DNA of 64,000 nt from contig JACAEQ010000057.1 of assembly GCA_013388755.1 (NCBI GenBank), positions 1 through 64,000 of the forward strand, given 5' to 3'. Shown here one piece after another: positions 7,524 to 28,802 of this stretch. The DNA comes from Chloroflexota bacterium (GTDB taxonomy: Bacteria > Chloroflexota > Chloroflexia > Chloroflexales > Roseiflexaceae). Positions within the stretch are counted from its first letter, which is position 1. Each line of letters opens with the position of its first letter. The notes below the pieces were generated by a model. It made no database searches, had not been told where the DNA came from, and saw nothing but the letters and a program-made list of their open reading frames with translations. Position numbers and translations under genes: made by a program.

Positions 7524-9152
7524 ATGCGTTATCGTGCGAAGCCCCCGGCTCAGATGTTGCTGATCTCCAGGCGCGTCCCGGTAGCGCTGGTGCTCGCCAT
7601 CCTGCTGCTCGTCGCCTGTACCGCGCCGCCACCCGTGGCGCTGCCGTCGCCACCTGACGAACGACCCGTTGTACGCGACTCCGAGGTACGTATGAACCAG
7701 CTCATTCCGAAGCCTGCCGCCGTGACACCGCGTGCCGGTGTCTTTACCTTTCAGCCGGTCACAACCATTCATGTCGAGCCGCATGGCGAAGAGATGTTGT
7801 GGCTCGGGCAGTACCTGGCGGAGCGACTTGGCCCGGCTACCGGCTACCAGTTCGTGGTTCAGCCCGGAGGTGCCATGTCAGCGGGCAATGTCTGGTTGAC
7901 GACGTCCGGCGCGGATCCGGCTCTGGGGGAGGAGGGATACGAACTGATCGTCACGCCGGATGGCGTCATGCTCAGGGCCCACCGGCCAGCAGGCGTCTTC
8001 CGCGGTATTCAGACGCTACGCCAGTTGCTACCGCCAGCAATTGAGTTGCAACAGGCTCAGCCAGGCGCGTGGGAACTGCCCGCCGTCGAGATCCGCGATG
8101 TCCCGCGTTTTGCCTGGCGTGGCGCGATGCTTGACGTTGCGCGACATTTCTTCGGCGTCGCGGACGTCAAACGTTTCATTGATCTGCTGGCGCTCTACAA
8201 AATGAATGTGCTCCACCTGCATCTGAGCGACGATCAGGGCTGGCGGATTGAGATCCAATCCTGGCCGAACCTGGCGTTGTATGGCGGCAGTACCCAGGTG
8301 GGCGGTGGGGCGGGTGGCTACTACACCCAGGCCGAGTATGCAGACATTGTTGCTTATGCGGCCCGACGCTACATCATCGTGGTGCCGGAGATTGACATGC
8401 CCGGCCATACCAACGCCGCACTGGCCTCGTATGCCGAATTGAACTGCGACGGCGTCGCACGGACCCTCTACTCCGGCGTTGAGGTTGGCTTCAGCGCGCT
8501 GTGTGTCGAAAGCGACACGGTGTATCAATTCGTGGACGACGTTGTGCGCGAACTGGCGGCGCTGACACCCGGCCCGTACATGCATATTGGCGGCGATGAA
8601 GTGCAGACGCTCGATGCTGCCGCGTATGCCGGCTTTATCGAACGCGCCCAGGCGATCGTCCAGGCGCATGGCAAGCGCATGATTGGCTGGGAGGAGGTTG
8701 CGCATGCGACGCTGTCGCCTACATCGGTCGTCCAATCCTGGAGAAGCACCGTCGCTGCAGAAGCGGTCCGGCAGGGTGCGAAGGTGATTATGTCCCCGGC
8801 ATCGCGAACGTACCTCGATATGAAGTATGACCCCAACACGCCGCTCGGCCTGTCATGGGCTGGCCTGGTCGAGGTGCAGGATGCCTATGCGTGGGACCCG
8901 GCGACACTGCTTGAGGGTGTGGGTGAGCAGGATATCCTTGGTGTGGAAGCGCCGCTGTGGACGGAGACGATTGCGACGCGCGAACAGATGGATTCCATGG
9001 TCTTCCCCCGCCTGCTGGGTATTGCCGAGATCGGCTGGTCGCCGGCACATGGCCGCAGCTGGGAGGAATATCGGTTACGACTTGCTGCGCATGGGCCGCG
9101 GCTGGCCGCGCTGGGGGTCGCGTTCTATCGCTCGCCGCAGGTGCCGTGGTAA
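7524..9152 (+). CDS. Beta-N-acetylhexosaminidase, GH20, lipoprotein
   Basis: This 542-aa exo-hydrolase removes terminal GlcNAc/GalNAc from chitin oligomers, glycans or peptidoglycan fragments. The signal peptide ends LLVAC, with the lipid Cys at residue 32. A GH20b N-terminal domain covers about 55-185, and the catalytic TIM barrel begins at RDVPRFAWRGAMLDVARHFF. The catalytic Asp-Glu pair is in HIGGDEV (D358, E359). The barrel also shows DQGWRIEI and VPEIDMPGH. Length is normal. A second ATG at 7554 would still give a usable signal peptide. It has its own probable promoter and is followed by repeats, so it is probably monocistronic. The likely role is cell-surface glycan scavenging or wall recycling. 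Confidence 0.9.
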   Translation: MRYRAKPPAQMLLISRRVPVALVLAILLLVACTAPPPVALPSPPDERPVVRDSEVRMNQLIPKPAAVTPRAGVFTFQPVTTIHVEPHGEEMLWLGQYLAERLGPATGYQFVVQPGGAMSAGNVWLTTSGADPALGEEGYELIVTPDGVMLRAHRPAGVFRGIQTLRQLLPPAIELQQAQPGAWELPAVEIRDVPRFAWRGAMLDVARHFFGVADVKRFIDLLALYKMNVLHLHLSDDQGWRIEIQSWPNLALYGGSTQVGGGAGGYYTQAEYADIVAYAARRYIIVVPEIDMPGHTNAALASYAELNCDGVARTLYSGVEVGFSALCVESDTVYQFVDDVVRELAALTPGPYMHIGGDEVQTLDAAAYAGFIERAQAIVQAHGKRMIGWEEVAHATLSPTSVVQSWRSTVAAEAVRQGAKVIMSPASRTYLDMKYDPNTPLGLSWAGLVEVQDAYAWDPATLLEGVGEQDILGVEAPLWTETIATREQMDSMVFPRLLGIAEIGWSPAHGRSWEEYRLRLAAHGPRLAALGVAFYRSPQVPW

Positions 9153-9188
9153 CAGGTGTGGCGTACGACCAGGGAGTAGTTGCTTGTG

Positions 9189-9252
9189 CAGGATCACGGT
9201 ACCCTGAGGAGTCGTGCAGCGGTGGAGCGAAGGGTACATGCCGTCACTCCTG
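9189..9252. repeat. R2 interspersed repeat, copy A
   Basis: This copy contains CAGGATCACGGTACCCTG, a GTGCAGCGG core and ATGCCGTCACTCCTG. Related copies lie at 32562 and 41456. All three sit just downstream of a gene end, and none encodes anything. Confidence 0.55.
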
Positions 9253-9275
9253 ATCGGTGCGATACAGCTAAACTC

Positions 9276-9412
9276 AATACCTTTCAAATAAGGCGTTACG
9301 CATCGCACGGCCCCCCACCCCGGCCTTCCCCCGCTGGGAGGAGGAGTCGGACGCCCTCCCCCGGTGCGGGAGGGCGGGGGTGGGGGTGACGGGCGTAGTT
9401 GAAACGTATCGC
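9276..9412. repeat. R3 interspersed palindromic repeat
   Basis: The left end is AATACCTTTCAAATAAGG and the right end GGGCGTAGTTGAAACGTATC, an imperfect terminal inverted repeat. The interior is a G/C-run hairpin around GGAGGAGTCGGACGCCCTCC. It fills the gap after the hexosaminidase. Confidence 0.75.
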
Positions 9413-9525
9413 TGCCCGGCAAAAGCAATATTCGCAAGGTAAAGGCACCTTAACGTCAGGTTGTCCACTGAAGTATGTAGAGTCCGGCGGGATATGTTAG
9501 GTTGAACCCACACAGATTGCACGTG

Positions 9526-9534
9526 TGCTAGAAT
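9526..9534 (+). promoter_or_regulatory. Possible extended -10 promoter of the tungsten-enzyme island
   Basis: TGCTAGAAT fits an extended -10. TTGAAC at 9502-9507 is a candidate -35, but the spacing is long (21 nt). The transcript would start near 9541 and carry a leader of about 110 nt before the AOR gene. Confidence 0.35.
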
Positions 9535-9626
9535 AGCGTTGCCACGCCTGCGCCGATGATGGGCGGGCCATGTTTCTCCGTGACGGTAGGGCACCCGAGG
9601 TTCTTCGATCTGGTTGACCAGCAGTC

Positions 9627-9638
9627 GCAACGCGTTGC
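9627..9638. promoter_or_regulatory. 12-bp perfect palindrome touching the AOR ribosome-binding site
   Basis: GCAACGCGTTGC is a perfect palindrome directly before AAGGAGG (9639-9645). It could be a repressor site or a small hairpin controlling translation of the AOR. No metal-pterin riboswitch fold could be confirmed by eye. Confidence 0.35.
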
Positions 9639-9650
9639 AAGGAGGCATCC

Positions 9651-11477
9651 ATGGCACTTGGCGGTTATGCAAACCGGATCGCGCACGTCGATCTAACTGC
9701 GGGCACGATCGACTATCAGCCGATCCCCGAAGACTGGGCGCGCAAGTACGTTGGTGCGCGCGGCCTGGGAGTACGGTACATGCTCGAGAATGGGCCGCAG
9801 GTCGATCCGCTCTCGCCTGACAACCTGCTCTGCTTTATGAATGGCCCCCTTACCGGTACCGACGCGAACATGAGCGGGCGCATGGCAATCGTGACCAAGT
9901 CGCCGCTGACGGGCACGATTACCGATAGCCATCACGGCGGCTGGTCGGCGGCGAGGCTCCGCTGGGCCGGTTTTGATGGGTTGCTGTTCAAAGGCAAGGC
10001 GAGCAAGCCGGTCTATGCCTATGTGCAGGATGGGACGGTGGAGCTCCGTGATGCCTCCGAGGTGTGGGGTAAGGGCGTCCACGACACGATCCGCTTTTTC
10101 AAGGAGCGTTATGGTGAGAAGGATCTCACCGTCATCGCCATCGGGCCCGGCGGTGAGAACCTGGTGCGCTTTGCCTGCTGGGTCAACGAGAATGATCGCG
10201 CCAGTGGCCGTGGGGGCACCGGCTGCGTAGGTGGGAGCAAGAACCTGAAGGCCATCGTGGTCAAAGCGCCCAAGCGCATTCCGAAGGCCGAGAATACTGC
10301 GGCCTGGAAGGCGGCCCACAAGCGGGCGCTGGCAACGATCATGGATGAGCAGAATATCACCAGCCCGCGCAAGGGTGGCCTGTCGGTCTACGGTACCAAC
10401 GTGTTGATGAATATCACCAATACGATGGGTGCCCTGCCGAGCAAGAACAGCCAGGTCACCTCGTTTGGCCCTGCGGGTGAGAAGATCAGCGGTGAGTATG
10501 TCAAGGAGCATATCCTGGTCGAAGATCCCACGTGCCACGCCTGTCCGGTGGCGTGCAAGAAGGAGGTCGAGATCAAGGAAGGCCCGTGGAAGGGCCTGCG
10601 CATGGAGAGCGTCGAGTATGAGCCGGCATGGTCGCTCGGCGCCAACTGCGGTAACGACGATATCAATACTGTCGCCAAACTGATCGATCTCTGTAACGAT
10701 TACGGTCTGGATGCCATTGAGACCGGCCACCCGCTCTCGGTGTACATGGAGGCCACTGAGAAGGGTTATACCAATGGCGCGGGCGGTCTGCCGTGGGGCG
10801 ATATTTTCGCGATGGTGGAAACGGTGCGCAAAATCGCCTTCCGCGAGGGAATCGGCGAGGTGCTGGCGAATGGTGCCGATGCCACGGCGAAGCACTTCGG
10901 CCATCCTGAACTGGCGATGACCGTGAAAGGTCAGGGTATTCCGGCCTACGATCCGCGCGGCCTGAAAGGGATGGGTATTGCCTACGCGACGAGCAACCGC
11001 GGTGCCTGCCACCTGCGCGCGTATACCCCCGCCGCTGAGCTTGGCGTGATGCCCTTCGGTTCGCTCAAAGTTGACCCGCTGGCATGGAAGGGCAAGGGTG
11101 AACTGGTGAAGGTCTTCCAGGATGTTCACGCCTTCTCCGATAGCCTTGACCTCTGCAAGTTCAGCGCGTTCGCCGAGGGTGCCGATGAGTACGCCGCCCA
11201 GTATGCCGCCATCGTCGGCGTGGAGTGCACCGCTGAGGATGTGCTCAAGATCGGTGAGCGTATCTATAATCTCGAGCGCTACTACAACAATCTGGCCGGC
11301 TTCCGCGAGGGTAGCGATTACCTGCCCGAGCGCTTCACGAAAGAGGCCTCGACCATGCCCGGCTCGCTGGGGCATGTCTGCGAGCTGGATCTGATGCTCG
11401 AGGAGTATTACGCCGCCCGCGGCTGGGTCAATGGCGTTGTGCCGGAGGCCAAGCTGAAGGAACTCGAAATCATCTGA
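9651..11477 (+). CDS. aor: Aldehyde ferredoxin oxidoreductase (tungsten bis-pterin enzyme)
   Basis: The 608-aa cytoplasmic enzyme oxidises aldehydes to acids with ferredoxin, or runs in reverse, using W-bis-tungstopterin and one 4Fe-4S cluster. The N-terminal AOR domain starts GGYANRIAHVDLTAGTI. The cluster ligands are CHACPVAC (C295, C298, C302) with the distant Cys in LDLCKFS (C502). Pterin-contact regions include RASGRGGTG and NRGACHLRAYTP. Length is normal for the family. A strong AAGGAGG lies 6 nt before the ATG. Downstream genes supply a maturase and Moco/Wco factors, supporting tungsten over molybdenum. The exact aldehyde substrate cannot be read from sequence. Confidence 0.93.
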   Translation: MALGGYANRIAHVDLTAGTIDYQPIPEDWARKYVGARGLGVRYMLENGPQVDPLSPDNLLCFMNGPLTGTDANMSGRMAIVTKSPLTGTITDSHHGGWSAARLRWAGFDGLLFKGKASKPVYAYVQDGTVELRDASEVWGKGVHDTIRFFKERYGEKDLTVIAIGPGGENLVRFACWVNENDRASGRGGTGCVGGSKNLKAIVVKAPKRIPKAENTAAWKAAHKRALATIMDEQNITSPRKGGLSVYGTNVLMNITNTMGALPSKNSQVTSFGPAGEKISGEYVKEHILVEDPTCHACPVACKKEVEIKEGPWKGLRMESVEYEPAWSLGANCGNDDINTVAKLIDLCNDYGLDAIETGHPLSVYMEATEKGYTNGAGGLPWGDIFAMVETVRKIAFREGIGEVLANGADATAKHFGHPELAMTVKGQGIPAYDPRGLKGMGIAYATSNRGACHLRAYTPAAELGVMPFGSLKVDPLAWKGKGELVKVFQDVHAFSDSLDLCKFSAFAEGADEYAAQYAAIVGVECTAEDVLKIGERIYNLERYYNNLAGFREGSDYLPERFTKEASTMPGSLGHVCELDLMLEEYYAARGWVNGVVPEAKLKELEII

Positions 11478-11495
11478 ACGGATTGGAGCGCAACA

Positions 11496-11529
11496 CAGGG
11501 ATCGGGCGGCGATGGCTTCTCGATCCCTG
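11496..11529 (+). terminator. Hairpin between AOR and the DUF1952-like gene
   Basis: CAGGGATCG ... CGATCCCTG is a perfect 9-bp inverted repeat with a 16-nt loop, 18 bp after the AOR stop. There is no T-run, so it may be an attenuator or mRNA stabiliser that keeps AOR expression above the maturation genes rather than a full terminator. Confidence 0.45.
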
Positions 11530-11537
11530 TATTGCTT

Positions 11538-11795
11538 ATGGCTGTTGTGACCCGCGATATCCGCGGCATTCCTCTGTGGTTGCTGCGTGACTACCTGGTC
11601 GATCTGGACGGTACGCTCGCGGCCGATAACCTGGTCGTCGGGCCTGGCTGGCGCGTTCAGCTGACCAGGCTGGCGGATGTTCAGATCGGTTCGCTGCGCG
11701 TTGGCGAAGTGCGCCTTGAGATGAGCGGCGCACCCGAGGTGATCGCCGCGCTCGAACGTGCATTGTGGCCGAAACTCTTGCGCGGGGGTGGCTAA
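11538..11795 (+). CDS. Stand-alone DUF1952-like protein with C-terminal GGG
   Basis: This 85-aa protein reads IRGIPLWLLRDYL, then VQIGSLRVGEVRLEMSG, and ends KLLRGGG. The pattern (P-x-W-L-L-x-x-Y-L, x-GSL, R-x-E-x-x-G, RGGG end) agrees, from memory, with the C-terminal DUF1952 domain that follows MoaD in the Thermus 'MoaD-related' protein. Here it is a separate gene, and MoaD is encoded 1.5 kb away. The ATG at 11538 is preferred; a TTG lies at 11532. Its stop overlaps an ATG (TAATG) of the radical SAM gene, so the two are coupled. Function is unknown; a role in tungstopterin sulfur transfer or assembly is inference. Confidence 0.6.
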   Translation: MAVVTRDIRGIPLWLLRDYLVDLDGTLAADNLVVGPGWRVQLTRLADVQIGSLRVGEVRLEMSGAPEVIAALERALWPKLLRGGG

Positions 11796-11821
11796 TGCGA
11801 TGGGCCAGGCAGGGGAATACC

Positions 11822-13075
11822 ATGAGCACCACATCGAGCAGCTGGGTGGAAGTGGACGATGAAGGCCGGCTGGTGATCCCGCCGGAACTGGTGTCGCGCC
11901 TCGGGTTGCACCCCGGCGCACAGGTGCGCCTGGAGGCCGGTGTCAATGATGTGCGCCTGCACCGGCCCGTGACCCATCTGAACAAGGTGTACATCGAGCC
12001 GACGAACCGCTGCAATCTTGCCTGCCGTACCTGCATGCGCAATAGCTGGGACGTGCGCATGGGCCAGATGAGCGAGGCGATCTTCGGTCGCATTCTCGAC
12101 GGACTGCGCGCCGTGACGCCGACGCCGTCCGTCTTCTTCAGTGGCATCGGTGAACCGCTGGCACATCCGCGCACCATTGATATGGTCGCCCGGGTCAGGG
12201 AGCTTGGCGCGATGACCGAGTTGATCACTAATGGCACCCTGCTCGACGAACGGCGTGCTCGTGGCTTGATCGAGGCCGGCCTCGATGTGCTGTGGGTCTC
12301 GATCGATGGCGCAACCCCTGAGAGTTATGCCGATGTGCGCCTCGGCGCGGCGTTGCCGGAGGTTCTGGAGAACATGGCGCGCTTCCGGCGGTTGCGCCCG
12401 GCCGGGCACCACGCCAGGCCCGAAATGGGTATCAACTTCGTGGCAATGAAGCGCAATATCGCCGACCTGCCTGAGGTGATCGCGATCGGGCGTCGCCTTG
12501 GCGTCACGCGCTTCATGGTCAGCAATGTGCTCCCCTACACGCGCGAATTGTGCGATGAAGTGCTCTACGACCGGACATTACGCGACATTACGTACCTGCC
12601 GTCGGCATGGCTGCCGCGGCTGAGTTTCCCCAAGATGGATCTGAATGACGACACCCGGCCGTCCTTCCTGCGCGCATTGCGTAGTGGCGCCAGCGTCACG
12701 TTTGCCGGCAATAACCTCGGCGGAGCCAATGATGTCTGTACCTTTATCGAGAATGGGTCAATGACGGTCGGCTGGGATGGCAACGTCAGCCCCTGTCCGC
12801 CGCTGCTCTATACCCATGTGAGCTATCTCCACCGTCGCCGGCGAGTCTCACACCGTCATATCATCGGCAACCTGGCCGAGCGCGATCTGCTCGATCTGTG
12901 GAACGATCCCGACTATGTCGCCTACCGCAGCCGAGTGCAGCATTTCGCCTTCGCGCCCTGTACCGCCTGCGGCGGCTGCGACCTGTCGGAGTCGAACGAG
13001 GCCGACTGTCTCGGTAACGAATTTCCGGTCTGTGGTGGCTGTCTCTGGGCGCAGGCCGTCATCCAGTGCCCGTAG
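11822..13075 (+). CDS. Tungsten-enzyme radical SAM/SPASM maturase with N-terminal AbrB-like domain
   Basis: The protein is 417 aa from ATG 11822 (AGGGG 8 nt upstream); an in-frame ATG at 11795 overlaps the previous stop. Residues 8-42 form an AbrB/SpoVT-like strand-helix element (DDEGRLVIPPELVSRLGL). The radical SAM core follows with CNLACRTC (C64, C68, C71) and FFSGIGEPLAHP. The C-terminal SPASM-like Cys-rich region shows CTACGGCDLS and CGGCLW, probably binding extra 4Fe-4S clusters. It matches the family named tungsten cofactor oxidoreductase radical SAM maturase, which co-occurs with AOR genes. It presumably modifies the cofactor or the AOR polypeptide; the reaction is not established. Confidence 0.85.
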   Translation: MSTTSSSWVEVDDEGRLVIPPELVSRLGLHPGAQVRLEAGVNDVRLHRPVTHLNKVYIEPTNRCNLACRTCMRNSWDVRMGQMSEAIFGRILDGLRAVTPTPSVFFSGIGEPLAHPRTIDMVARVRELGAMTELITNGTLLDERRARGLIEAGLDVLWVSIDGATPESYADVRLGAALPEVLENMARFRRLRPAGHHARPEMGINFVAMKRNIADLPEVIAIGRRLGVTRFMVSNVLPYTRELCDEVLYDRTLRDITYLPSAWLPRLSFPKMDLNDDTRPSFLRALRSGASVTFAGNNLGGANDVCTFIENGSMTVGWDGNVSPCPPLLYTHVSYLHRRRRVSHRHIIGNLAERDLLDLWNDPDYVAYRSRVQHFAFAPCTACGGCDLSESNEADCLGNEFPVCGGCLWAQAVIQCP

Positions 13076-13130
13076 CCACATCTGCGCCCACCGCAGACCG
13101 GCTGCGGCAGTGTTGTCATGGTTTGCATGT

Positions 13131-13152
13131 CTCGCGGAGACGCGAGCGTTTT
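13131..13152 (+). terminator. Probable intrinsic terminator after the maturase
   Basis: CTCGCG-GAGA-CGCGAG is followed by CGTTTT, 55 bp after the stop codon. The remaining 13153-13346 shows nothing recognisable. Confidence 0.45.
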
Positions 13153-13346
13153 GCCGCAGGCAGGCCGTGCCGGCTAGCTGGTACGCATTGCCAGCGTGTG
13201 TCGCAGCTATCGCGCCACCAGACATCCCTCTTTGCCTGCACCGCAGGGCAGGGGCAGACGGATGGAGTATGTCCTCTCCATCTCCAGATTGCCTTTGAGA
13301 CGTGGCATCGCCCCATGGTGCGCCTGGCGCAGCGTGCAATCGATCC

Positions 13347-13625
13347 TCATCCACCGGCTACTGCCGGGAAGACATCGATCGTGTCGGAAGCCGTAATGAC
13401 CGATTGCATCCCATCAGCAAGGAACGGGGCATCGCGCCCGTTCACAAACACATGCACGTGGCGGTAGAGTTCTCCGTCAGCGTCGAGCAGTTGCTGTCGC
13501 AGCGGTGGCCAGCGCTCAACCAGAGCATCCACCAGTTCGCGCACGGTCACGCCGGGAGGGAGATCGAGTTCCACCGTGCGACCACCAACAATCGGGCGCA
13601 GCGTAGCGTAGAAATTGATCTTCAT
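13347..13625 (-). CDS. moaD: MoaD/ThiS-type ubiquitin-like sulfur carrier
   Basis: This 92-aa beta-grasp protein reads MKINFYATLRPIVGGRTVEL and ends DVFPAVAGG. The terminal Gly-Gly is the site adenylated by MoeB and thiocarboxylated to supply the dithiolene sulfurs of molybdopterin or tungstopterin. Length and fold pattern (VTVRELVDALVERWP, YRHVHVFVNGRDAPF) are normal. It is transcribed divergently from moeA across a 73-bp gap that holds a palindrome and a -10. No moaE is next to it, so MPT synthase partners must be elsewhere. Confidence 0.85.
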   Translation of the reverse strand: MKINFYATLRPIVGGRTVELDLPPGVTVRELVDALVERWPPLRQQLLDADGELYRHVHVFVNGRDAPFLADGMQSVITASDTIDVFPAVAGG

Positions 13626-13657
13626 GATCGTCGGAAAGATGAATGGACAAAAGGCTG

Positions 13658-13675
13658 ATGGTATAATTCTACCAT
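13658..13675. promoter_or_regulatory. Divergent moaD/moeA promoter with operator-like palindrome
   Basis: ATGGTA-TAATTC-TACCAT is a 6+6 inverted repeat that contains the -10 hexamer TATAAT (13662-13667) facing moeA. The -35 is weak. A repressor bound here would cover the moeA -10, and the site sits only 33 bp from the moaD start. The moeA ribosome site AAGGAG follows at 13688-13693. Confidence 0.45.
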
Positions 13676-13698
13676 ACCCCCACCCATAAGGAGTTGCT

Positions 13699-14931
13699 AT
13701 GCCCGAGTTGTTTCAGGTCGTGACGACGGCTGAAGCCAATGCCCGGCTGGCAGGTCACATGTCGACGCCAGGGCGTGTCGAGATGGTACCGATCGATGCG
13801 GCTCTGGATCGGGTGCTGGCCGAGGATCTGTATTCACCCTGCAACCTGCCTGCCTTCCCGCGCTCAACCATGGACGGATTCGCGGTACGTGCCGCTGATA
13901 CGCACGGCGCCAGCGAAGGATTGCCCGCGTACCTCACCCTGTGCGGCGAAACCCCGATGGGTCGCCCGCCGGACCTGACTGTCGGGCCGGGCCAGGCGAT
14001 TCGCATTCATACCGGCGGAATGCTTCCAGCCGGCAGCGATGCGGTTGTGATGGTTGAGCATACGCAGGCGCTCGATGCCACGATGCTCGAAGTCGTGCGC
14101 CCGGTTGCCGCCGGTGAAAACGTTATTCCAGTGGGCGAAGACGTGCGTGCCGGTGACTTGCTGTTTGCGCGCGGCCACCGGCTGCGCCCGCAAGATCTGG
14201 GTGGTCTGGCGGGCGTTGGCGTGATCGCTGTGCCAGTGATGGCGCGCCCGCGTGTCGCCATCCTCGCCTCGGGAGATGAGGTCGTGCCCGCCGATGCAAC
14301 ACCTGGCCCGGCACAGGTGCGCGATATCAACAGCCACACGATCGCCGCCCTGGTGCGGCGGCATGGCGGTGAACCGTCCATGTGCGGCATCGCGCGCGAC
14401 GATGCGGCAGAACTTGAGCGCATGGCCCGTGCTGCGCTCGAGCGTGCAGATGCGCTGATCATTTCTGCGGGAAGCTCGGTGAGCACCCGTGATATGACCG
14501 CCACGGTGATCGCGTCGCTCGGTGCGCCCGGCATCCTGGTCCACGGTGTGGCGATTCACCCCGGGAAGCCAACTATCCTGGCTGTGGCCGATGGTCGCCC
14601 GGTGTTCGGCTTGCCCGGTAACCCCGTCTCGACGATGATCGCCTTCGAGTTGTTCGTCGTCCCGGCACTGCGCCGCCTCCTGGGCGTCGTTTCGGGCGAC
14701 GTGTTCGTCGTTCAGGCGCGCCTGTCGCGTAATATCGCCTCGCGCCCGGGCCGCGAGGACTATGTGCCGATACGGCTGGAGCAGCGCGAGGATGGGTTGT
14801 GGGCCGATCCGGTGTTTGGCAAATCGAACCTGATCTATACGATGGCTCACGCCGACGGGCTGGTGCAGGTGCCCCTCGATCTCGCCGGCCTCTACGCAGG
14901 TGAACTCGTTACGGTATGGCGATTCGTGTGA
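13699..14931 (+). CDS. moeA: Molybdopterin molybdenumtransferase MoeA
   Basis: The 410-aa cytoplasmic enzyme inserts molybdate or tungstate into adenylylated pterin. MoeA N-terminal domains show RSTMDGFAVRAADT and GEDVRAGDLL. The MoCF (MogA-like) domain from about residue 175 has DINSHTIAALVRRHGGE, SAGSSVSTRD and PGKPTILAV, then GLPGNPVSTMI. Domain IV completes it. Length is normal. AAGGAG lies 6 nt before the ATG. A second, larger MoeA-type gene follows, and such pairs are common where both Mo and W enzymes are made. Confidence 0.92.
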   Translation: MPELFQVVTTAEANARLAGHMSTPGRVEMVPIDAALDRVLAEDLYSPCNLPAFPRSTMDGFAVRAADTHGASEGLPAYLTLCGETPMGRPPDLTVGPGQAIRIHTGGMLPAGSDAVVMVEHTQALDATMLEVVRPVAAGENVIPVGEDVRAGDLLFARGHRLRPQDLGGLAGVGVIAVPVMARPRVAILASGDEVVPADATPGPAQVRDINSHTIAALVRRHGGEPSMCGIARDDAAELERMARAALERADALIISAGSSVSTRDMTATVIASLGAPGILVHGVAIHPGKPTILAVADGRPVFGLPGNPVSTMIAFELFVVPALRRLLGVVSGDVFVVQARLSRNIASRPGREDYVPIRLEQREDGLWADPVFGKSNLIYTMAHADGLVQVPLDLAGLYAGELVTVWRFV

Positions 14932-15005
14932 CATGCTGGCGCAGCAAGGACGCCACGTCACCCGGTTATCTGGCAACCGCTCACATGGGGGGTGCAACGC
15001 CACCT

Positions 15006-15032
15006 GCAGCGAGGGTGTCCCGCCCTCGTTGC
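15006..15032 (+). terminator. Hairpin between the two moeA-type genes
   Basis: GCAGCGAGGG ... CCCTCGTTGC forms a 10-bp stem with one G-U pair and a 7-nt loop, in the 208-bp gap. There is no T-run. It may be a partial terminator or a short repeat. Confidence 0.35.
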
Positions 15033-15139
15033 GGGATATGAGGGCAAACGGGCCTCGCTCCCAGGAGACGTGTGACCACTGACGCTGGTTCCATGGGTGC
15101 CGGTTGAAGGAACACCGGTGTTTACAGGGGAACAACCGC

Positions 15140-17080
15140 ATGCCGCGCAACTATTACCTTGAAGATCGTGCCCTCGACGACGCGATCAGCCGCTTCGAGG
15201 CGGCGCTTGCCAGCGCCGGAGGGTTAGCCATGCCGGGCGTTGAGACGGTGCCGCTCACCGAGGCGCGCGGCCGCGTGATTGCCGCGCCAGTCTGGGCGGC
15301 TCGTTCTGTGCCGCACTATCATGCTGCAGCCATGGATGGCATTGCCGTGCGCGCCGCCGAGACCGCCGGAGCAACCGAGTCGACGCCGCGCCGCCTGGCC
15401 CTGGGTCACCAGGCTGTGTGGGTCGATACCGGTGATGCCATGCCCGCCGATATGGATGCGGTTGTGATGGCCGAGCATGTGCAAACAATCGATGAGGCAA
15501 CGGTCGAGATCGATGCTGCGGTGGCACCGTGGCAACACGTCCGCCCGCTGGGCGAGGATATTGTCGCAACCGAACTGGTCGTTGCCGAAGGAGAGCGCCT
15601 GCGACCGGTCGATCTCGGAGCGATTGCCGCGGCCGGCCACGCACGTGTGCAGGTGTATCGCCTGCCGCGCGTGGCAATCATTCCTACCGGCACCGAACTG
15701 GTCACCGTCGAGGAAGCGCGAGCACGACAGGAGCGCGGTGAGCCGGTGCGCGCTGGAGAGATCGTCGAGTTCAACTCGCTCATCCTCGCCGGCCTGGTTG
15801 AAGAATGGGGCGGCCAGGCGCTGCGTCTGCCGCCGGCGCCCGACCGGCGCGACATGCTGCGATCGGCGATCGAGACGGCTCTTGGACAGGCCGACATTGT
15901 GGTCGTCAATGCCGGATCATCTGCAGGTTCCGAGGATTACACCGCAGCAGTGCTGGGCGAACTGGGCACGGTTGTGGTCCACGGTGTGGCGATTCGTCCC
16001 GGTCACCCGGTCATTCTGGGAGTAGCAGCGGGTAAGCCGGTGCTGGGCCTGCCTGGCTACCCTGTCTCGGCGGCACTGACCGCTGATCTGTTCCTGCGCC
16101 CGCTCGTCTACCGGCTTCAGGGGCAGCAACCCCCGGCACGCCCCAGGGTGCAGGCGCTGATCAGTCGCAAACTCCTTTCCCCGCTGGGAGAAGACGAATT
16201 CGTGCGGGTGACCCTGGGGCGCGTGGATGGGCGCCTGATTGCGACGCCCCTCAGTCGGGGCGCGGGTGTCGTCACGTCTCTCGTGCGCGCCGACGGTATC
16301 GCCCGCATTCCGCGCTTCTCCGAAGGTGTGCATGCCGGGGAGGAGGTAACGGTCGAGTTGTTGCGCGATCAGGATGCGATCGAGCGCACCCTGGTGGCCA
16401 TCGGCAGTCACGACCTGGCACTCGACCTGCTGGGCGGCCACCTGCGCCGCCATGCACCCGGCATGCGCCTGAGTTCGGCAAATGTTGGTAGCCTGCGTGG
16501 CCTGCTGGCGCTCAAGCGCCACGACGCGCATCTGGCCGGCATTCACCTGCTCGACGAAGAAACTGGTGAGTACAATCGCCCGTTCGTCCAGCGTCTGCTG
16601 CCTGATGAAGCGATCGTGCTCGTGCACCTGGCCTTCCGTGAGCAGGGGTTTCTTGTCGCGCCGGGTAACCCGCTGGCTCTCACTGGCCTGCACGATCTGG
16701 TGCGGCCCGGCGTACGCCTCGTCAACCGGCAACGCGGCTCCGGCACGCGCGTGCTGCTCGATTATCACCTGCAGCTACTGGGCGTCGATCCGCTCCAGAT
16801 TGCCGGCTATGAACGCGAAGAGTTCACCCACATGGCAGTGGCGGCGGCCGTGCTCAGCGGCGCAGCCCATGTCGGGCTCGGTATACGTGCCGCCGCGCGC
16901 GCCCTCGGGCTGGATTTCGTGCCGCTCTTCAGTGAACGCTATGATCTGGCCGTTCCCAGGCGGCACTGGGAGAGTGACCTGCTCGCGCCGGTGCGCCGCA
17001 CCCTGGCCGATCCCACATATCGGGCCGCCGTCGAGGCTCTCGGCGGCTACGATACCCACCAGATGGGCACGGAACTGTAG
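15140..17080 (+). CDS. moeA: MoeA fused to a periplasmic-binding-protein-like domain
   Basis: The protein is 646 aa from ATG 15140 (AGGGGAA upstream). Residues 1-420 are a full MoeA (AAAMDGIAVRAAE, GEDIVATELVVAEGE, AGSSAGSEDYTAAV, GLPGYPVSAALTADLF). Residues 430-646 are a PBP-like domain of the ModA/COG1910 kind (LRLSSANVGSLRGLLALKRH, RQRGSGTRVLLDYHL, VGLGIRAAARAL). Such fusions are known in archaea and some bacteria. The PBP-like part probably binds oxoanion or cofactor, though in cytoplasm rather than periplasm because no signal peptide is present. With moeA it may give separate Mo and W selectivity; that is inference. Confidence 0.9.
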   Translation: MPRNYYLEDRALDDAISRFEAALASAGGLAMPGVETVPLTEARGRVIAAPVWAARSVPHYHAAAMDGIAVRAAETAGATESTPRRLALGHQAVWVDTGDAMPADMDAVVMAEHVQTIDEATVEIDAAVAPWQHVRPLGEDIVATELVVAEGERLRPVDLGAIAAAGHARVQVYRLPRVAIIPTGTELVTVEEARARQERGEPVRAGEIVEFNSLILAGLVEEWGGQALRLPPAPDRRDMLRSAIETALGQADIVVVNAGSSAGSEDYTAAVLGELGTVVVHGVAIRPGHPVILGVAAGKPVLGLPGYPVSAALTADLFLRPLVYRLQGQQPPARPRVQALISRKLLSPLGEDEFVRVTLGRVDGRLIATPLSRGAGVVTSLVRADGIARIPRFSEGVHAGEEVTVELLRDQDAIERTLVAIGSHDLALDLLGGHLRRHAPGMRLSSANVGSLRGLLALKRHDAHLAGIHLLDEETGEYNRPFVQRLLPDEAIVLVHLAFREQGFLVAPGNPLALTGLHDLVRPGVRLVNRQRGSGTRVLLDYHLQLLGVDPLQIAGYEREEFTHMAVAAAVLSGAAHVGLGIRAAARALGLDFVPLFSERYDLAVPRRHWESDLLAPVRRTLADPTYRAAVEALGGYDTHQMGTEL

Positions 17081-17361
17081 TGGTTACGCGCACGATGGTG
17101 TGCCGTTGCCCTCACCTCATCTCCTCAGGCGGCCGGCTTCTTGTGGGTCCGTGCCGCACGCCTCACTCATACAGGTCACACGATGACACGGGTCATCCCG
17201 AAGGTGACACTCGCCTGTATGGCGTGACCATGCGATCTGCTTCTGACCGGCACTGATGAACATTCAGTATGAACACCGGTAGACACTCCGCCGTGGCCCG
17301 CAAGGGCCGGCTTCGTTCGGTACAGGCCGCCTGCGCGGCCTGCTGGTGACCCCGTCGGCGG
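17081..17361. other. Gene-free stretch before the R3 repeat
   Basis: No ORF with coding character is visible. A GC-rich segment around 17290-17350 (CCCGCAAGGGCCGGCTTCG, CGCCTGCGCGGCC) resembles the interior of the R4 element at 57330 and may be its relic. Confidence 0.4.
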
Positions 17362-17472
17362 GCTTCGTACCGCATAGCCCCCAGCCTCCCCCCGCTGGGG
17401 GGAGGAGTCGGACTCCCTCCCCCGGCGGGGGAGGGTTGGGGTGGGGGTGACGGGCGTAGTTGCAACGTATCG
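17362..17472. repeat. R3 interspersed palindromic repeat, left end eroded
   Basis: CCCCGCTGGGGGGAGGAGTC and CTCCCTCCCCCGGCGGGGG arms are followed by the terminal GGGCGTAGTTGCAACGTATC. The left terminal repeat is not recognisable. The following 17473-17680 holds nothing clear except the ribosome-binding site of the next gene. Confidence 0.7.
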
Positions 17473-17680
17473 GGTTTCATTGGTAACCTTCATCAGCCCG
17501 CCGGCGCATGACATGCGAGCTGACCGTCAGGGCGACCGCGTGGCTCGTCATGTAGTGATTTGATCGTCAGGTGTTAATGCCGCTTGATCCGTCGCTTAAC
17601 CGCAGGATAACGGCCATCGGTTAGGGTACCGCTGCGCCTCACGTGAGCCGTATAGATTCCGATTATCCAGGGAGAAATGC

Positions 17681-18784
17681 ATGCGTTCATTACTGGTCTT
17701 GCTGGCAGCCGCGATTGCCCTGTCCGCATGTGCAACCACGGCCCCGAGCGGCGGTGCCTCCGGCGGAGGCTCCACATCCGGTGAAGGTACAGGCTCGAAC
17801 CAGAGTTCATCGTCGGGCGGAAATGCCGCGACCACGCCAATCGTCATGGCATGGCTGCCGAACGAGTCGGGCGCTGATCTGAAGGATGCCCGTGATGCGT
17901 TTGGCGCGATCATCAGTGAAGCGCTTGGCCGGCCCGTTGAACATCGCACCACGACCGACTACATCATCGCTGTCGAGACCGTCGCAAATAACAACGCGCA
18001 CCTGGCGTGGTTCGGCGCCGAAGCATACGTGCAGGCGCGTGACAAGAACCCGGCGGTTGTGCCGCTGGTCATTCCAAGCGGCGCCGATGGCACCGTCGCC
18101 ACCGCGGTCTACTACAGCTGGCTGGCAGTCAAGCGCGGCGAGGAAGGCAACTACCAGGATGGCGGTGTCTTCAAGATTGACAACATCCAGGGTAAGCGGT
18201 TTTCGTTTGTGTCGAATAGCTCGACCTCCGGTTTCCGCGTGCCATCAGCAACGATTGTCAAGTACTTCAGCACCATGGATCAGTGGAAAGATCTCAAGGC
18301 TGATGATCTGCTCGAAGGCGGCGCCAACAACTTTTTCGCCGATGTACAGTTTGGTGGCTCACATCAGGGATCAGCGGTGAACCTGATTTCCGGCAAAGTG
18401 GATGTCGCAGCGTTCTGCGATGCCTGTGTGGAGAACTACGTCACGCTGGTCGAAAGCACGGCCAATACGCCTGGCGCAGTCTATCGCGTGAACAATGATG
18501 CTGCTGAGCCGTTCGATAAGTTCCCCGGCGCCGAGTTTGTGGTAATCGCCTCGGTGCCCGTGATCAATGCTCCGTTTGTTGCCAACAGCAACATGCTGAC
18601 GCCAGAAGAGATCAAGCGTCTGCAGGATGTGTTGACTTCCGATGCGGTGGCCAACAACCCGAAAATCTTCGCCCCGAAAGAGGCGACAGATGCCGGCTAC
18701 AAGCCATTCTTCCGCAAGACCAACGCTGAGCGCTTCCTGGTTGTCGAGGACTCGTTCTTCGACCCGATCCGCGCGATGCGCTAA
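17681..18784 (+). CDS. phnD: Phosphonate/phosphite-type ABC substrate-binding lipoprotein PhnD
   Basis: This 367-aa extracytoplasmic lipoprotein has a lipobox LSAC (Cys at about 17), then a Gly/Ser-rich linker to about residue 50. The PhnD family domain follows, with HRTTTDYIIAVETVANN, the ligand loop SSTSGFRVPSA, and GGSHQGSAVNLISGKVDVAA. AGGGAGAA precedes the ATG. It heads a four-gene importer. The family binds phosphonates, phosphite, hypophosphite or methylphosphonate. No C-P lyase or phosphite dehydrogenase is nearby, so the ligand is open. Confidence 0.88.
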   Translation: MRSLLVLLAAAIALSACATTAPSGGASGGGSTSGEGTGSNQSSSSGGNAATTPIVMAWLPNESGADLKDARDAFGAIISEALGRPVEHRTTTDYIIAVETVANNNAHLAWFGAEAYVQARDKNPAVVPLVIPSGADGTVATAVYYSWLAVKRGEEGNYQDGGVFKIDNIQGKRFSFVSNSSTSGFRVPSATIVKYFSTMDQWKDLKADDLLEGGANNFFADVQFGGSHQGSAVNLISGKVDVAAFCDACVENYVTLVESTANTPGAVYRVNNDAAEPFDKFPGAEFVVIASVPVINAPFVANSNMLTPEEIKRLQDVLTSDAVANNPKIFAPKEATDAGYKPFFRKTNAERFLVVEDSFFDPIRAMR

Positions 18785-18871
18785 TGACGACTGCAGGCCG
18801 ACCGGCTCCATCATGGCGGAGCCGGTCATTCGCATGACTGGCAGTAGGTATCACACTACAGAGGTTCCGGC

Positions 18872-19657
18872 ATGGCTCTGTTGCAGGTCGAGGCGCTGAC
18901 CAAACGCTACGGCGGTGAGACACTGGCGCTGGATAATATTACGTTCGATGTTGAGCCAGGCGAGTTTGTGGGTATTATCGGACCATCCGGAGCAGGTAAA
19001 TCAACGTTGTTGCGCTGTGTAAACCGGCTGGTGGACATCAGCAGCGGCGATGTTCGCTTCGATGGCGTCAGTGTGCCGACGCTACGCGGCGCAGCGCTCC
19101 GGCGGCAGCGCACCCGGATAGGCATGATCTTTCAGCACTACAACCTGGTCAACCGGCTGAGCGTTATCGAAAATGTGTTGCACGGGCGGCTCGGGTACAA
19201 GGGAACGATTCAGGGGATCCTTGGTCTCTACACCGAGGAAGAAAAACGCGATGCGGCCCGGATCATCGAAAGCCTGGGGCTGAGTGAGCAGATGTACAAG
19301 CGGTGTGATCAGTTGAGCGGCGGGCAAAAACAGCGTGTCGGTATCGCCCGCGCGCTGGTACAGCAACCGAAAATGTTGCTCTGTGATGAACCGATTGCAT
19401 CACTCGACCCGAATGCCGCCAAGATCATTATGGATACATTGAGTGACATCAACCGCACAACAGGTATCACGATCCTGGTGAATCTGCACCAGGTTGATGT
19501 CGCCTTACGCTACGCCCGGCGGATCATCGGTATCAATCGCGGCAGACTGGTCTATGATGGCGAGCCAGAGCGCCTGAGCAATGAACAGATCTATCAGATC
19601 TACGGCTCTGAAGCCGGGGATTTGATCCTCGATCTCCGGGAGCGCTATGCAGCCTGA
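18872..19657 (+). CDS. phnC: Phosphonate-type ABC transporter ATPase PhnC
   Basis: The 261-aa cytoplasmic ATPase has Walker A GPSGAGKST, Q-loop IFQHYNLV, signature LSGGQKQRVGIARAL, Walker B MLLCDEPIASLD and switch His in NLHQVD. The NLHQVD switch and the N-RL-V-ENVLHGRLG stretch are typical of PhnC. Its 3' end overlaps phnE by 11 bp, so the two are translationally coupled. Confidence 0.93.
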   Translation: MALLQVEALTKRYGGETLALDNITFDVEPGEFVGIIGPSGAGKSTLLRCVNRLVDISSGDVRFDGVSVPTLRGAALRRQRTRIGMIFQHYNLVNRLSVIENVLHGRLGYKGTIQGILGLYTEEEKRDAARIIESLGLSEQMYKRCDQLSGGQKQRVGIARALVQQPKMLLCDEPIASLDPNAAKIIMDTLSDINRTTGITILVNLHQVDVALRYARRIIGINRGRLVYDGEPERLSNEQIYQIYGSEAGDLILDLRERYAA

Positions 19658-20432
19658 CATTTTTCAACTCCGGCAGCGCCAGTCGGCGCTCTTTTTTGTG
19701 TTGCTCAGCGGATTAACCTATGGCGCGATTCTCCTTACCAATTATGATGTGGTACAGGGATTGACGGCCATACCGCGCGCGTTCGTCTGGGCCACTGCCA
19801 ATTTTATCCCGGATGATGAGGCCTGGCAGCGTTTGCCGCGCATTCTCGACAAGCTGCGAGAGACGGTGTTGATGGCGATTTCGTCGGCGACGGTTGCTTC
19901 GGCGCTTGGCCTGGCAGTGGCACTGCTCGGCGCCACGACGACCCGGCCGCACCCCTGGTTCAGCCCGCCGGCGCGCGCCATCGCCAGCGTGTTTCGCAAT
20001 ATTGACGTTTCCGCCTGGGCATTGATCCTGCTCTTTTCATTCGGCCAGAGCGCCATCACCGGCTATTTCGCACTGTTTTTTGTGACGTTCGGCTTCATTG
20101 TGCGCGTGATGATCGAGACGATTGATGAGATCGGGACCGAGTCGGTCGAGGCCTTGCGTGCCACCGGCGCCGGGTACCTGGCGATTATTACCCAGAGTGT
20201 CATTCCGGCATGCCTGCCGCAGCTGATCAGCTGGGTGCTCTATATGATCGAAACGAATATCCGCAGCGCAACCCTGGTCGGGATACTGACCGGTACCGGT
20301 ATTGGATTCTCCTTCGATCTCTACTACAAGAGCCTGAATTACAGTTCGGCCAGCCTGGTCGTACTGGTGATCGTGGTGGCGGTTCTGTTAATAGAAGCGC
20401 TCTCGAACGCGATCCGAAGGGCAGTACTGTGA
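19647..20432 (+). CDS. phnE: Phosphonate-type ABC permease PhnE, first subunit
   Basis: This 261-aa inner-membrane permease has about six helices. The EAA loop motif is ESVEALRATGAGYLAIITQSV, and FRNIDVSAWALILLFSFG is typical of the family's central part. It overlaps phnC by 11 bp and the next permease by 1 bp (ATGA), giving a tight operon. Confidence 0.9.
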   Translation: MQPDIFQLRQRQSALFFVLLSGLTYGAILLTNYDVVQGLTAIPRAFVWATANFIPDDEAWQRLPRILDKLRETVLMAISSATVASALGLAVALLGATTTRPHPWFSPPARAIASVFRNIDVSAWALILLFSFGQSAITGYFALFFVTFGFIVRVMIETIDEIGTESVEALRATGAGYLAIITQSVIPACLPQLISWVLYMIETNIRSATLVGILTGTGIGFSFDLYYKSLNYSSASLVVLVIVVAVLLIEALSNAIRRAVL

Positions 20433-24283: not shown

Positions 24284-25705
24284 TCACCGTTGCACCGTAT
24301 CGAGCACCGTGCCATCGGCGGCGACCAGGATCAATGCCAGTGGCATCGTCCCGGCAGCGTGGGTCGAGCAACTCAGACAGGGATCATAGGCGCGGATGCC
24401 GGCTTCGACCCGGTTGAGTGCGCCTTCGCTGATCCGGTCGCCGTGGACGTAGCGCTGCGCGATCTGGGCCACGGTGCGGTTCATGGCCAGGTTGTTGTGC
24501 CCGGTGGCGATGATCAAGTTGACTCTGCGTATGAGGCCATTGGGGTCAACGGCATAGTCGTGGAACAATGTGCCGCGAGGCGCCTCGCTCACGCCAACGC
24601 CTTCGAGCTGGTTGACACCCGCCTCGGCGCGCAGTCTGCCGGAATCCAGATCCGGGTCATCGAGCAGCAACGAAATCCGTTCCAGTGCCGCGAGAATCTC
24701 GACCAGCCGGGCATAGTGATAATAAAAAGACGACGTTGCAATACCGCCGGCGCGCTGGCGCATCTCACCAAGTTCGGCGTCGGCCAGGAGCGTGCCGATA
24801 CGGGTACAGATATTCAGCCGCGCCAGTGGCCCGACGCGATACATACCGGCAGGGTAGCCACGCGGGCGGTAATATGGCATCTTCAGATACGACCACGGTT
24901 CAACGGCTTCGGCAATCATCTCGCGATAGTGTGCCGGATCAACCTGGTCAGCGATGATCGCGCCGCCGGAGTCGACCAGCCGCAGGCGCCCGCCGTAGTG
25001 TTCCCATTCGCCGTTCGGCCCGACCAGGCCAAGGAACAGTGAGGGGAAGTCGCCAAAGGATGCCACTTCATCGGCGTGGGTATCGAGCAATGTTTTGAAG
25101 CGCCGCAGCGCGTCGAGCACGGTTGTGCGCGCTTCCGGTAGGCGTGCGGCAATCGCGGCGCGCTGCGCGGCGGCTGGCGCGGCACGCACACCGCCAGGGA
25201 CGGCCCATGCCGGGTGGATCTTACTGCCACCGAGTGTCTCAATAATCTCCTGGCCAAACTGGCGTAATCGGATGCCCGCGCGCGCCAGGTGGGCATCGGC
25301 GGCCATCAGACCAAACACGTTGCGCGTGGCGGGATCGCTATCGAAACCCAGCAGCAAATCAGGCGCGCTGAGGTGGAAGAAACTCAATGCATGCGACTGA
25401 ACAATCTGGCCCAGGTTCATCAGGCGGCGCAGTTTCTCCGCTGCCGGCGGGATCATCACCGACAGGATGGCATCGCCCGCTTTGGCCGAGGCCAGCAGAT
25501 GGCTGACCGGGCAGATACCGCAGATCCGCGCGGTGATTCCTGGCATTTCCCACAATGGCCGGCCTTCACAGAAGCGCTCAAACCCACGAAACTCGGTGAC
25601 GTGAAAGCGTGCCTCCTGCACGGTACCCGCGTCATCAAGATGGATCGTGATTCTGGCGTGCCCTTCGATGCGTGTGACCGGGTCTATCAGAATGCGCCGG
25701 GTCAT
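24284..25705 (-). CDS. hoxH: NAD-reducing [NiFe] hydrogenase large subunit HoxH
   Basis: This 473-aa catalytic subunit carries the NiFe(CN)2CO site. ATG 25705 is chosen because [17 protein letters not shown] is the family start and GAGGT lies upstream; the longer frame to 25810 is not family-like. Nickel ligands are RICGIC (C62, C65) and DPCLSC (C443, C446). Protease cleavage is expected after H449 in CSTH, removing a 24-residue tail (AAGTMPL...). Group 3d or 3b-like bidirectional type. It pairs with HoxY, and the diaphorase HoxFUE links it to NAD(P). Confidence 0.93.
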
Positions 25706-25811
25706 GCTTGACCTCGCTGTCGTCGTTTGCTCTGCGGCACGCGCCTGCAACTGTGCGCCAGGCGCAATCGCCGGGTTGTGTACCGCGAATGGTGCAGGGG
25801 GTACCAGCACC

Positions 25812-26357
25812 TCAGCCGAACTTGATCATCTCGCGCCCGGCCAGCAGCACCTCACCGCCGGCAAGGATCTGTTCCAGGGCGGCACGAATGCGCGGTGCAG
25901 GCGGCGGGCAGCCTGGCAGGTAGAGATCGACCGGTACGACGGCATGGACAGGGAGCACCCTGCCAAGCAATGCTGGAACGATACCGGGCGCATCCGGGAT
26001 CTGGCCAGACATATCCGCCCGTTCGACATACAGCGTCTGCAGAATCGGGCCCGGCGCGCCAAGCGGATTGCGCAGCGCTGTCACATTGCCGGTGACCGCG
26101 CAATCGCCGAAGGCAATCAGCGTGCGGGTGCGCTCCCGCACCTGGCGAATCAGGTGCAGGTTATCCGCATTCGCCACCGCGCCCTCGACCAGTGCAACGT
26201 CGACATGCTCAGGATATGCCTTGATGTCGGCGAGCGGGCTATACACGAGTTCGACGTGCCGGGCCAGTTCGAACAGCCACTCATCAAGATCGAGGAATGA
26301 CATGTGGCAACCCGAACACCCACCAAGCCAGATCGTTGCAAGTCGTAGCTTCTTCAC
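25812..26357 (-). CDS. hoxY: [NiFe] hydrogenase small subunit HoxY
   Basis: This 181-aa small subunit bears the proximal 4Fe-4S cluster. Ligands are WLGGCSGCH (C14, C17), FGDCAVTGN and YLPGCPPP. There is no Tat signal, so the enzyme is cytoplasmic. Length fits HoxY, which lacks the medial and distal cluster domain of uptake hydrogenases. It lies between hoxU (20 bp gap) and hoxH. Confidence 0.92.
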
Positions 26358-26377
26358 GGTCGTTCCATCCAGAACTA

Positions 26378-27085
26378 TTACCAGCGCTGGTCGCGTGCCG
26401 CGACAATGAACGCAATCTTTGTGGGATCGCGCTCCATTTCACTGACGGTGGCGCCACGCCGGAAAATGGCGCCGGTCGGGCAAGCGAGCAAGCACTTGCC
26501 ACACGACGTACAGCTGGTTGACTCCCCCCATGGCTGGCGCATGTCGGTGATGACCCGCGCGTCGGCCCCACGACCGGCGATATCCCATGTATGGACCCCT
26601 TCGACCTCATCGCAGACGCGGACGCAGCGTGTGCAGAGAACACAGCGATTGTGATCGATGCCGAACCGCCCGTGTGAGATATCCACCTCACAGACTGGAA
26701 ATGCATAATCAAAGCGCACATGATCCATGCCAATCGCAATGGCCAGATTCTGTAGTTCGCAATGGCCGTTGGCGACACACACCGCGCAGATATGGTTACG
26801 CTCGGCGAAGAGCAGTTCAATAATGATGCGGCGGTAGTTGCGCAGGCGCTCCGTGTCGGTGTGAACGACCATGCCTTCGACGACCTGGGTGACACACGCA
26901 GGACGCAGGGTGCGACTGCCTTCGATCTCGACCAGGCACATGCGGCACGCACCGACACTGGTCACACCATCAAGGTGACATAATGTAGGAATGTAGATAC
27001 CGTTCTCGCGCGCTGCTTCGAGAATCGTTTCACCCTCGCGCCCGCTGACGAGCTGATCATTGATAGTAAACGTTCGCGCTGCCAT
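26378..27085 (-). CDS. hoxU: Hydrogenase diaphorase iron-sulfur subunit HoxU
   Basis: The 235-aa protein is homologous to the NuoG N-terminus. It has a 2Fe-2S ferredoxin-like domain (CHLDG, GACRMC), then the His-Cys cluster region ([13 protein letters not shown]), then two 4Fe-4S ferredoxin motifs ([11 protein letters not shown] and [15 protein letters not shown]). It carries electrons between HoxF flavin and HoxY. The whole diaphorase set is in the order E-F-U, as in cyanobacterial and Chloroflexus-type operons. Confidence 0.93.
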
Positions 27086-27144
27086 CGTCTTTCTTTCGCC
27101 GTACGAGAAACATTGAACAACGAGCGTCCCTATGCCGTATCGGG

Positions 27145-28755: not shown

Positions 28756-28802
28756 AGGTTCACCTGTGCGGGTCAGCCAGCTGCCCCACGATCGCTTCGC
28801 CC

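Follow-up and report, generated by a model that had tools for sequence, protein, structure and literature searches.

The stretch of Chloroflexota DNA analysed here (contig JACAEQ010000057.1, 64,000 nucleotides, referred to below as the window) carries a small gene flanked by the genes of AOR and of a radical SAM protein, and the question that it raises is whether its glycine-ended product is a second sulfur carrier or a factor of another kind. To our knowledge, the assembly of AOR-family tungsten enzymes is still largely unsolved. The AOR-family tungsten oxidoreductase, a 608-residue protein encoded at 9651-11477 on the forward strand, was recognized by AFOR_N (252.8 bits) and AFOR_C (426.3 bits). 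The small gene occupies 11538-11795 (+) and is followed at 11822-13075 (+) by a gene whose product matched Radical_SAM and SPASM in Pfam. The best NCBIfam model for this product was TIGR04317 (tungsten-cofactor oxidoreductase maturase), with 290.4 bits and thus below the cut-off of 380, a value that was passed in none of 14 control genomes; we refer to the protein as a TIGR04317-like maturase. Its N-terminus (11822-11975) lies outside the TIGR04317 model and resembles AbrB/MazE (MazE_antitoxin, 17.3 bits, below cut-off), and the same kind of stretch is found in the maturases of two relatives (L057 and L058).

Further downstream, a MoaD of the SAMP1 type ending in VAGG is encoded on the reverse strand at 13347-13625 (PF02597, 47.4 bits; NF041918, 89.1 bits with a cut-off of 60). 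A MoeA-type metal insertase with the domains MoeA_N, MoCF_biosynth and MoeA_C (13699-14931, +) and another MoeA, joined to a PBP-like domain (15140-17080, +; PRK14498, 769.6 bits; PBP_like, 252.9 bits) come next. Behind the MoeA genes are those of a phosphonate-type ABC transporter (17681-20429, +), whose binding protein and ATPase were recognized by Pfam and whose permease was assigned by position only. A NiFe-hydrogenase large subunit and NADH-dehydrogenase-like subunits, possibly a Hox-type arrangement, are encoded about 13 kb from the AOR gene (approximately 24287-28920, -). As originally predicted, the small gene is therefore separate from MoaD, standing between AOR and the maturase with MoaD on the opposite strand, and both small proteins end in glycines (RGGG and VAGG, respectively).

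The spacer between the AOR stop codon and the start of the small gene contains a strong hairpin without a T run (11495-11530, +), with a minimum free energy of -33.7 kcal/mol for 11475-11545 (z of -4.84 against 200 shuffles). This structure could set different expression levels for the AOR gene and the gene behind it. No Rfam family matched at gathering scores within 9000-20000, and a scan for promoters and terminators gave counts close to the shuffled mean.

The small gene is an open reading frame of 85 codons with an ATG start, an alternative TTG start being present at 11532; start codons were picked by position. The protein begins with MAVVTRDIRGIPLWLL and ends with KLLRGGG. It had been thought to resemble DUF1952, and this was borne out with Pfam PF09189, which matched residues 10-65 with 25.0 bits (cut-off 22, E-value 1.8e-5) and retrieved the protein at 24.4 bits in a six-frame search of the genome. 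The profile number given at the time, PF09167, was mistaken: it designates DUF1942, and DUF1952 is PF09189. No ThiS/MoaD model of Pfam or NCBIfam matched the 85-residue protein up to an E-value of 1, a search in which the HMMER filters may hide weak matches. In a plasmid collection the window protein found no match.

The original prediction had also referred to a single-chain MoaD-DUF1952 protein from Thermus. Such a chain is PDB 1v8c, a 168-residue protein of T. thermophilus described as 'MoaD related protein'. With phmmer against PDB sequences, the window protein matched 1v8c_A on its C-terminal part (E-value 2.2e-4), and a profile built from 12 DUF1952 sequences matched 1v8c with an E-value of 1.8e-13, the alignment reaching the last residue of an end that reads SRGGG. 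The MoaD half of 1v8c ends with VAGG, directly after which the DUF1952 domain begins. Since the match falls on the C-terminal part and an internal VAGG precedes this second domain, this part of the prediction was right. When the Thermus protein was used as the query against the plasmid collection, 23 records matched, all 23 of them over the MoaD half only.

The structure of the window protein was then predicted with AF2 (pLDDT 91.3, falling to 63 on average for residues 81-85). In the model, the order of elements is a strand, a helix, four strands and a helix at residues 66-83, after which only the tail follows. Against residues 86-165 of 1v8c, the model gave a VIA-align Z of 12.9 with an rmsd of 1.4 over 80 aligned residues, the next chain reaching a Z of 8.5, and Foldseek matched the model to 1v8c with an E-value of 1.8e-6. 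It is the second domain of 1v8c, not its MoaD domain, that has the predicted fold; by contrast, when a fusion protein from a relative (L010) was compared, its MoaD half matched residues 1-84 of 1v8c; absence from such a list of folds is no proof. The model of the L010 fusion itself (pLDDT 77.8, 10 rows) aligned to 1v8c over the MoaD half only. The window protein thus shares with 1v8c the DUF1952 fold and the RGGG end. The two differ in that 1v8c is one MoaD-DUF1952 chain, whereas in the window the genes are separate and MoaD lies on the opposite strand behind the maturase.

Relatives were collected in two partly overlapping sets. One came from the PF09189 search of 301 Chloroflexota genomes, in which the match to the window protein stops at residue 65; the other came from a genome-wide scan for a peptide pattern of the N-terminus, in which hits were confirmed using the full-length query, and comprised 25 loci. 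The tail plays no part in either the profile match or the pattern. Many of the relatives are metagenome-assembled genomes from a single phylum, and the only case outside Chloroflexota was a Gemmatimonadetes contig (L048) that is perhaps misbinned. A protein cut by a contig end (L050) was excluded from the tail count.

Among the 31 distinct complete homologues, the tail, encoded in the window as Arg-Gly-Gly-Gly (residues 82-85) at 11781-11792 (+), had Arg at position -4 and Gly at position -2 without exception, and is not a product of chance. Eighteen of them ended with Gly and 13 with Ala, the tail types being RAGA (13), RAGG (9), RGGG (8) and RSGG (1). In an alignment of 30 rows, Y19, W38, S52, G56, R82 and G84 were invariant, so that the tail ranks with the most conserved parts of the protein. 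When the four C-terminal residues were excluded from tree building, the distribution of Gly and Ala ends required 7 parsimony changes (bootstrap range 6-8), of which 2 were forced by strongly supported branches alone. Taking into account the invariant Arg and Gly together with the switching between Gly and Ala, we consider the tail to be under strong selection, and the terminal Gly itself not to be. The two outcomes named beforehand as speaking against the original prediction, no DUF1952 match and homologues generally devoid of a Gly tail, did not occur; the conserved Gly-type tail takes the form of R-x-G. The C-terminal Gly-Gly characteristic of MoaD/ThiS-type carriers was present in 18 of the 31 members, and the window protein ends with Gly-Gly-Gly.

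The surroundings of DUF1952 were compared in the 25 loci of the scan, which are not independent, three of them being close Chloroploca relatives. MoaD was present in all 25, AOR in 21 and the maturase in 12; where AOR was missing, in four loci, the contig was short or the locus lay at a contig end. MoaD was directly upstream of DUF1952 in 24 loci, and in the remaining one (L033) the maturase intervenes. A possible DUF1952 start lay at most 4 nt from the end of the MoaD stop codon in 20 of the 25, with overlapping codons in 12 of these 20. As MoaD directly precedes DUF1952 in 24 of 25 loci, the arrangement in the window, with an inverted MoaD behind the maturase, is the unusual one. Fusions of MoaD and DUF1952 were found in 1v8c and in one genome of our set (G201, seen as L010/L066). 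MoaD carried a terminal Gly-Gly in 23 of the 25 loci, those of L026 and L045 having extra residues after it. What is new in these loci is that free-standing DUF1952 usually follows a dedicated MoaD immediately, the stop codon of the one often touching the start codon of the other, and is found beside one AOR clade.

We examined the co-occurrence of DUF1952 with AOR and with the maturase, as had been proposed. Initially 25 DUF1952 rows were obtained; nine below the cut-off were dropped, as was G144, which gave only a 40-residue match with no convincing frame, so that 15 were kept. None of the ten dropped rows matched our own DUF1952 profile. The AOR clade was defined by at least 59% identity to the window AOR, the next matches having at most 42%. 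Among the 301 Chloroflexota genomes, 15 had DUF1952, 25 had this AOR clade and 13 had both (Fisher p = 2e-14), which confirms the association with AOR. DUF1952 above the cut-off was missing from 12 of the 25 AOR-clade genomes, and our own profile found no match near AOR in these 12, some of the regions stopping at contig ends. In three of the 12, the AOR is 88% identical to that of the window and MoaD is next door. As close AORs thus occur without DUF1952, the protein would be helpful but not indispensable. Three others of the 12 (G080, G005 and G018) have, adjoining the AOR-linked MoaD, another MoaD-like gene whose degenerate end consists of SSG and an extension (L056, 3203-3529; L057, 3170-3544; L058, 3181-3525). 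Two genomes had DUF1952 and no AOR match at an E-value of 1e-100; their DUF1952 genes lie near a contig end (G094) and beside MoeA (G214). The latter, an orphan ending in RSGG (L064, 7944-8231), is divergent from the MoeA gene. In 14 named control genomes, AFOR was found in 5 and DUF1952 in Thermus composti only, a genome that also matched the AFOR, MoaE, ThiS and JAB families (at the level of family presence).

With the maturase the association was weak. A maturase of at least 57% identity was found in 13 of the 301 genomes; of the 15 DUF1952 genomes, 9 had one. The 6 DUF1952 genomes without one include three of 99-100% stated completeness (G222, G260 and G267) and one of only 82% (G129). Three AOR genomes had the maturase and lacked DUF1952, and when only the 25 AOR genomes were considered, maturase and DUF1952 showed no significant association (p = 0.11). 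The occurrence of DUF1952 is tied more closely to MoaD and AOR than to the maturase.

We also surveyed other cofactor genes. On another contig of the window's genome, MoaD and MoaE domains are joined in one open reading frame of 288 residues. Because the genome has this other MoaD with a MoaE, the AOR-linked MoaD is an extra one, and ordinary molybdopterin synthesis should not need it. MoaE was found in 26 of 27 genomes (15 with DUF1952 and 12 of the AOR clade without it), including that of the window, the sole exception (G081) being a genome without DUF1952; a role of DUF1952 as a replacement for MoaE was rejected on these counts. The window's genome gave four ThiS-family matches. One of them belongs to a cluster of an E1 (ThiF plus rhodanese), a ThiS-family protein and a JAMM protease (L070, 3685-5679), the ThiS-family protein having a diglycine followed by VLDGAR. 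Proteins of the JAB family were present in all 10 genomes tested. Judging from these genes, the tools to trim and activate Gly-tailed proteins (E1 and JAMM) are available in the genome. A second, more distant AOR-family gene is also present (G000:C141:12489-13625; AFOR_C, 263.7 bits).

How the protein acts may be explained in several ways. If it were a second sulfur carrier, the E1 enzyme would adenylate its C-terminal Gly and the resulting thiocarboxylate would give sulfur to the tungsten cofactor. Ubiquitin ends with R-G-G, which the DUF1952 tail resembles; the R-x-G motif is invariant (31/31), and an E1 (ThiF plus rhodanese) is encoded in the genome. A further point in favour is that DUF1952 ended in Gly-Gly wherever the diglycine of MoaD was masked or fused, in 4 of 4 homologues (5 of 5 with 1v8c) as opposed to 14 of the 27 others, the latter including one locus (L004) without MoaD nearby. 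With a one-sided p of 0.097 (0.058 with 1v8c) and only 2-3 independent pairs, this apparent link is not significant and is suggestive only. On the other hand, 13 of the 31 homologues end with Ala, a pattern involving 7 parsimony switches although well-supported branches force only 2; the model gave no sign of a MoaD fold, since its match in 1v8c is the second domain and its tail comes after a helix; and 23 of 25 loci encode a MoaD that itself ends in a diglycine. The Gly-Ala ends and the predicted fold weaken a carrier role, which we regard as unlikely, the strong conservation of the tail leaving it some probability. Of the two roles first suggested, sulfur carrier or assembly factor, it is the latter that we favour, the Gly-Ala ends, the predicted non-MoaD fold and the predicted position of the tail on a helix disfavouring the former. 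A variant, in which DUF1952 would be a sulfur or acyl carrier without a ubiquitin fold that sulfurates the AOR tungsten cofactor jointly with MoaD, its tail substituting where the MoaD diglycine is masked or fused, seems more improbable still. If it were true that the tail carries sulfur, DUF1952 would represent a type of carrier not based on the ubiquitin fold.

Two other roles relate the protein to its neighbours. SPASM enzymes often act on peptides, the maturase gene adjoins that of DUF1952 in the window, and a close maturase is present in 9 of the 15 DUF1952 genomes. The radical SAM maturase might then act on DUF1952 as a substrate, modifying its tail, or use it as a presenter through which to reach AOR. 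Since 6 of the 15 genomes lack a maturase of at least 57% identity, three of them at 99-100% completeness, this is weakened as the main explanation; the three AOR genomes with a maturase and without DUF1952, and the p of 0.11 within the 25, also speak against it, and we think it very unlikely. A stable small subunit of AOR, as distinct from an assembly factor, would agree with the presence of AOR in the same neighbourhood in 21 of 25 loci. Nevertheless, no conserved Cys is available for an iron-sulfur cluster, any Cys at all being found in only 4 of 31 DUF1952 cores; the protein is fused or coupled to MoaD, and no fusion to AOR was seen; and close AORs occur without it. In addition, the purified AOR of Aromatoleum is reported to consist of AorABC, without the MoaD-like products AorD and AorE (PMC6365974). 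We hold a subunit role to be quite unlikely, if a little less so than that of a maturase substrate.

What we propose, with about an even chance of being correct, is that DUF1952 acts as an accessory factor when tungsten enzymes are assembled, together with an AOR-dedicated MoaD of the SAMP1 type, and uses its tail as a recognition element. MoaD and DUF1952 would form a complex that assists in loading the tungsten cofactor onto AOR or in finishing it there. Through the short tail on its terminal helix, DUF1952 would be recognized by, or dock to, AOR, the E1 enzyme, a JAMM protease or MoaD, and the tail would not be an obligatory thiocarboxylate; this role of the tail is our guess, and every functional step of the model is one that we infer. 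Several findings speak against the proposal: MoaD and DUF1952 are on opposite strands in the window, DUF1952 is missing from 12 of the 25 AOR-clade genomes and from 4 of the 5 control genomes with AFOR, and G214 and G094 have it with no AOR match at an E-value of 1e-100. In the fused versions, a JAMM protease would probably free MoaD, by analogy with a MoaD-MoaE fusion. In D. radiodurans, as described in PMC8832034, DRJAMM cuts such a fusion and leaves a C-terminal Gly. There too MoaD is fused to a partner, but the partner is MoaE and not DUF1952, so that cleavage of a MoaD-DUF1952 chain may be suggested by analogy only.

Other known systems offer partial comparisons. In T. kodakarensis, PMC11323500 describes UblC (TK1065), a MoaD-family protein encoded between AOR and radical SAM genes and conjugated to proteins. 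Upon deletion of UblC, approximately 54% of AOR activity was left in Pyr medium and FOR activity was undetectable; deletion of either of the other Ubl proteins lowered AOR activity to less than half. GOR was independent of UblC, and in sulfur medium a triple Ubl mutant did not differ from its parent (PMC11323500). A loose parallel with the AOR-linked MoaD and DUF1952 may be drawn by analogy, as UblC, on that account, is also a small tail-bearing protein from between AOR and radical SAM genes that is implicated in tungsten-enzyme activity. UblC, however, belongs to the MoaD family, whereas DUF1952 is another domain, additional to such a MoaD. The aorABCDE genes of Aromatoleum aromaticum likewise include two small extra genes beside AOR, aorD and aorE, whose products are presented in PMC6365974 as putative tungsten-cofactor maturation factors; both are described there as MoaD-like, and the comparison with DUF1952 is by description only.

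Among 5.39 million open-access papers, we found no mention of DUF1952 or PF09189, and a search for TIGR04317 likewise returned no paper. PMC1796856 names 1v8c once, as a query in a DALI structure search. A term search of the main text of a 2026 classification of tungsten oxidoreductases (PMC13328260) did not return the words MoaD, radical SAM or maturase. The helpers named in PMC11323500 and PMC6365974 are MoaD-like and radical SAM proteins. To these would be added, as a testable missing piece of the assembly, a small protein whose R-x-G-(G/A) tail is nearly invariant, which accompanies one AOR clade and which in Thermus forms a single chain with MoaD. Our results point to an overlooked tungsten-enzyme assembly factor in Chloroflexota; they do not establish a second sulfur carrier.
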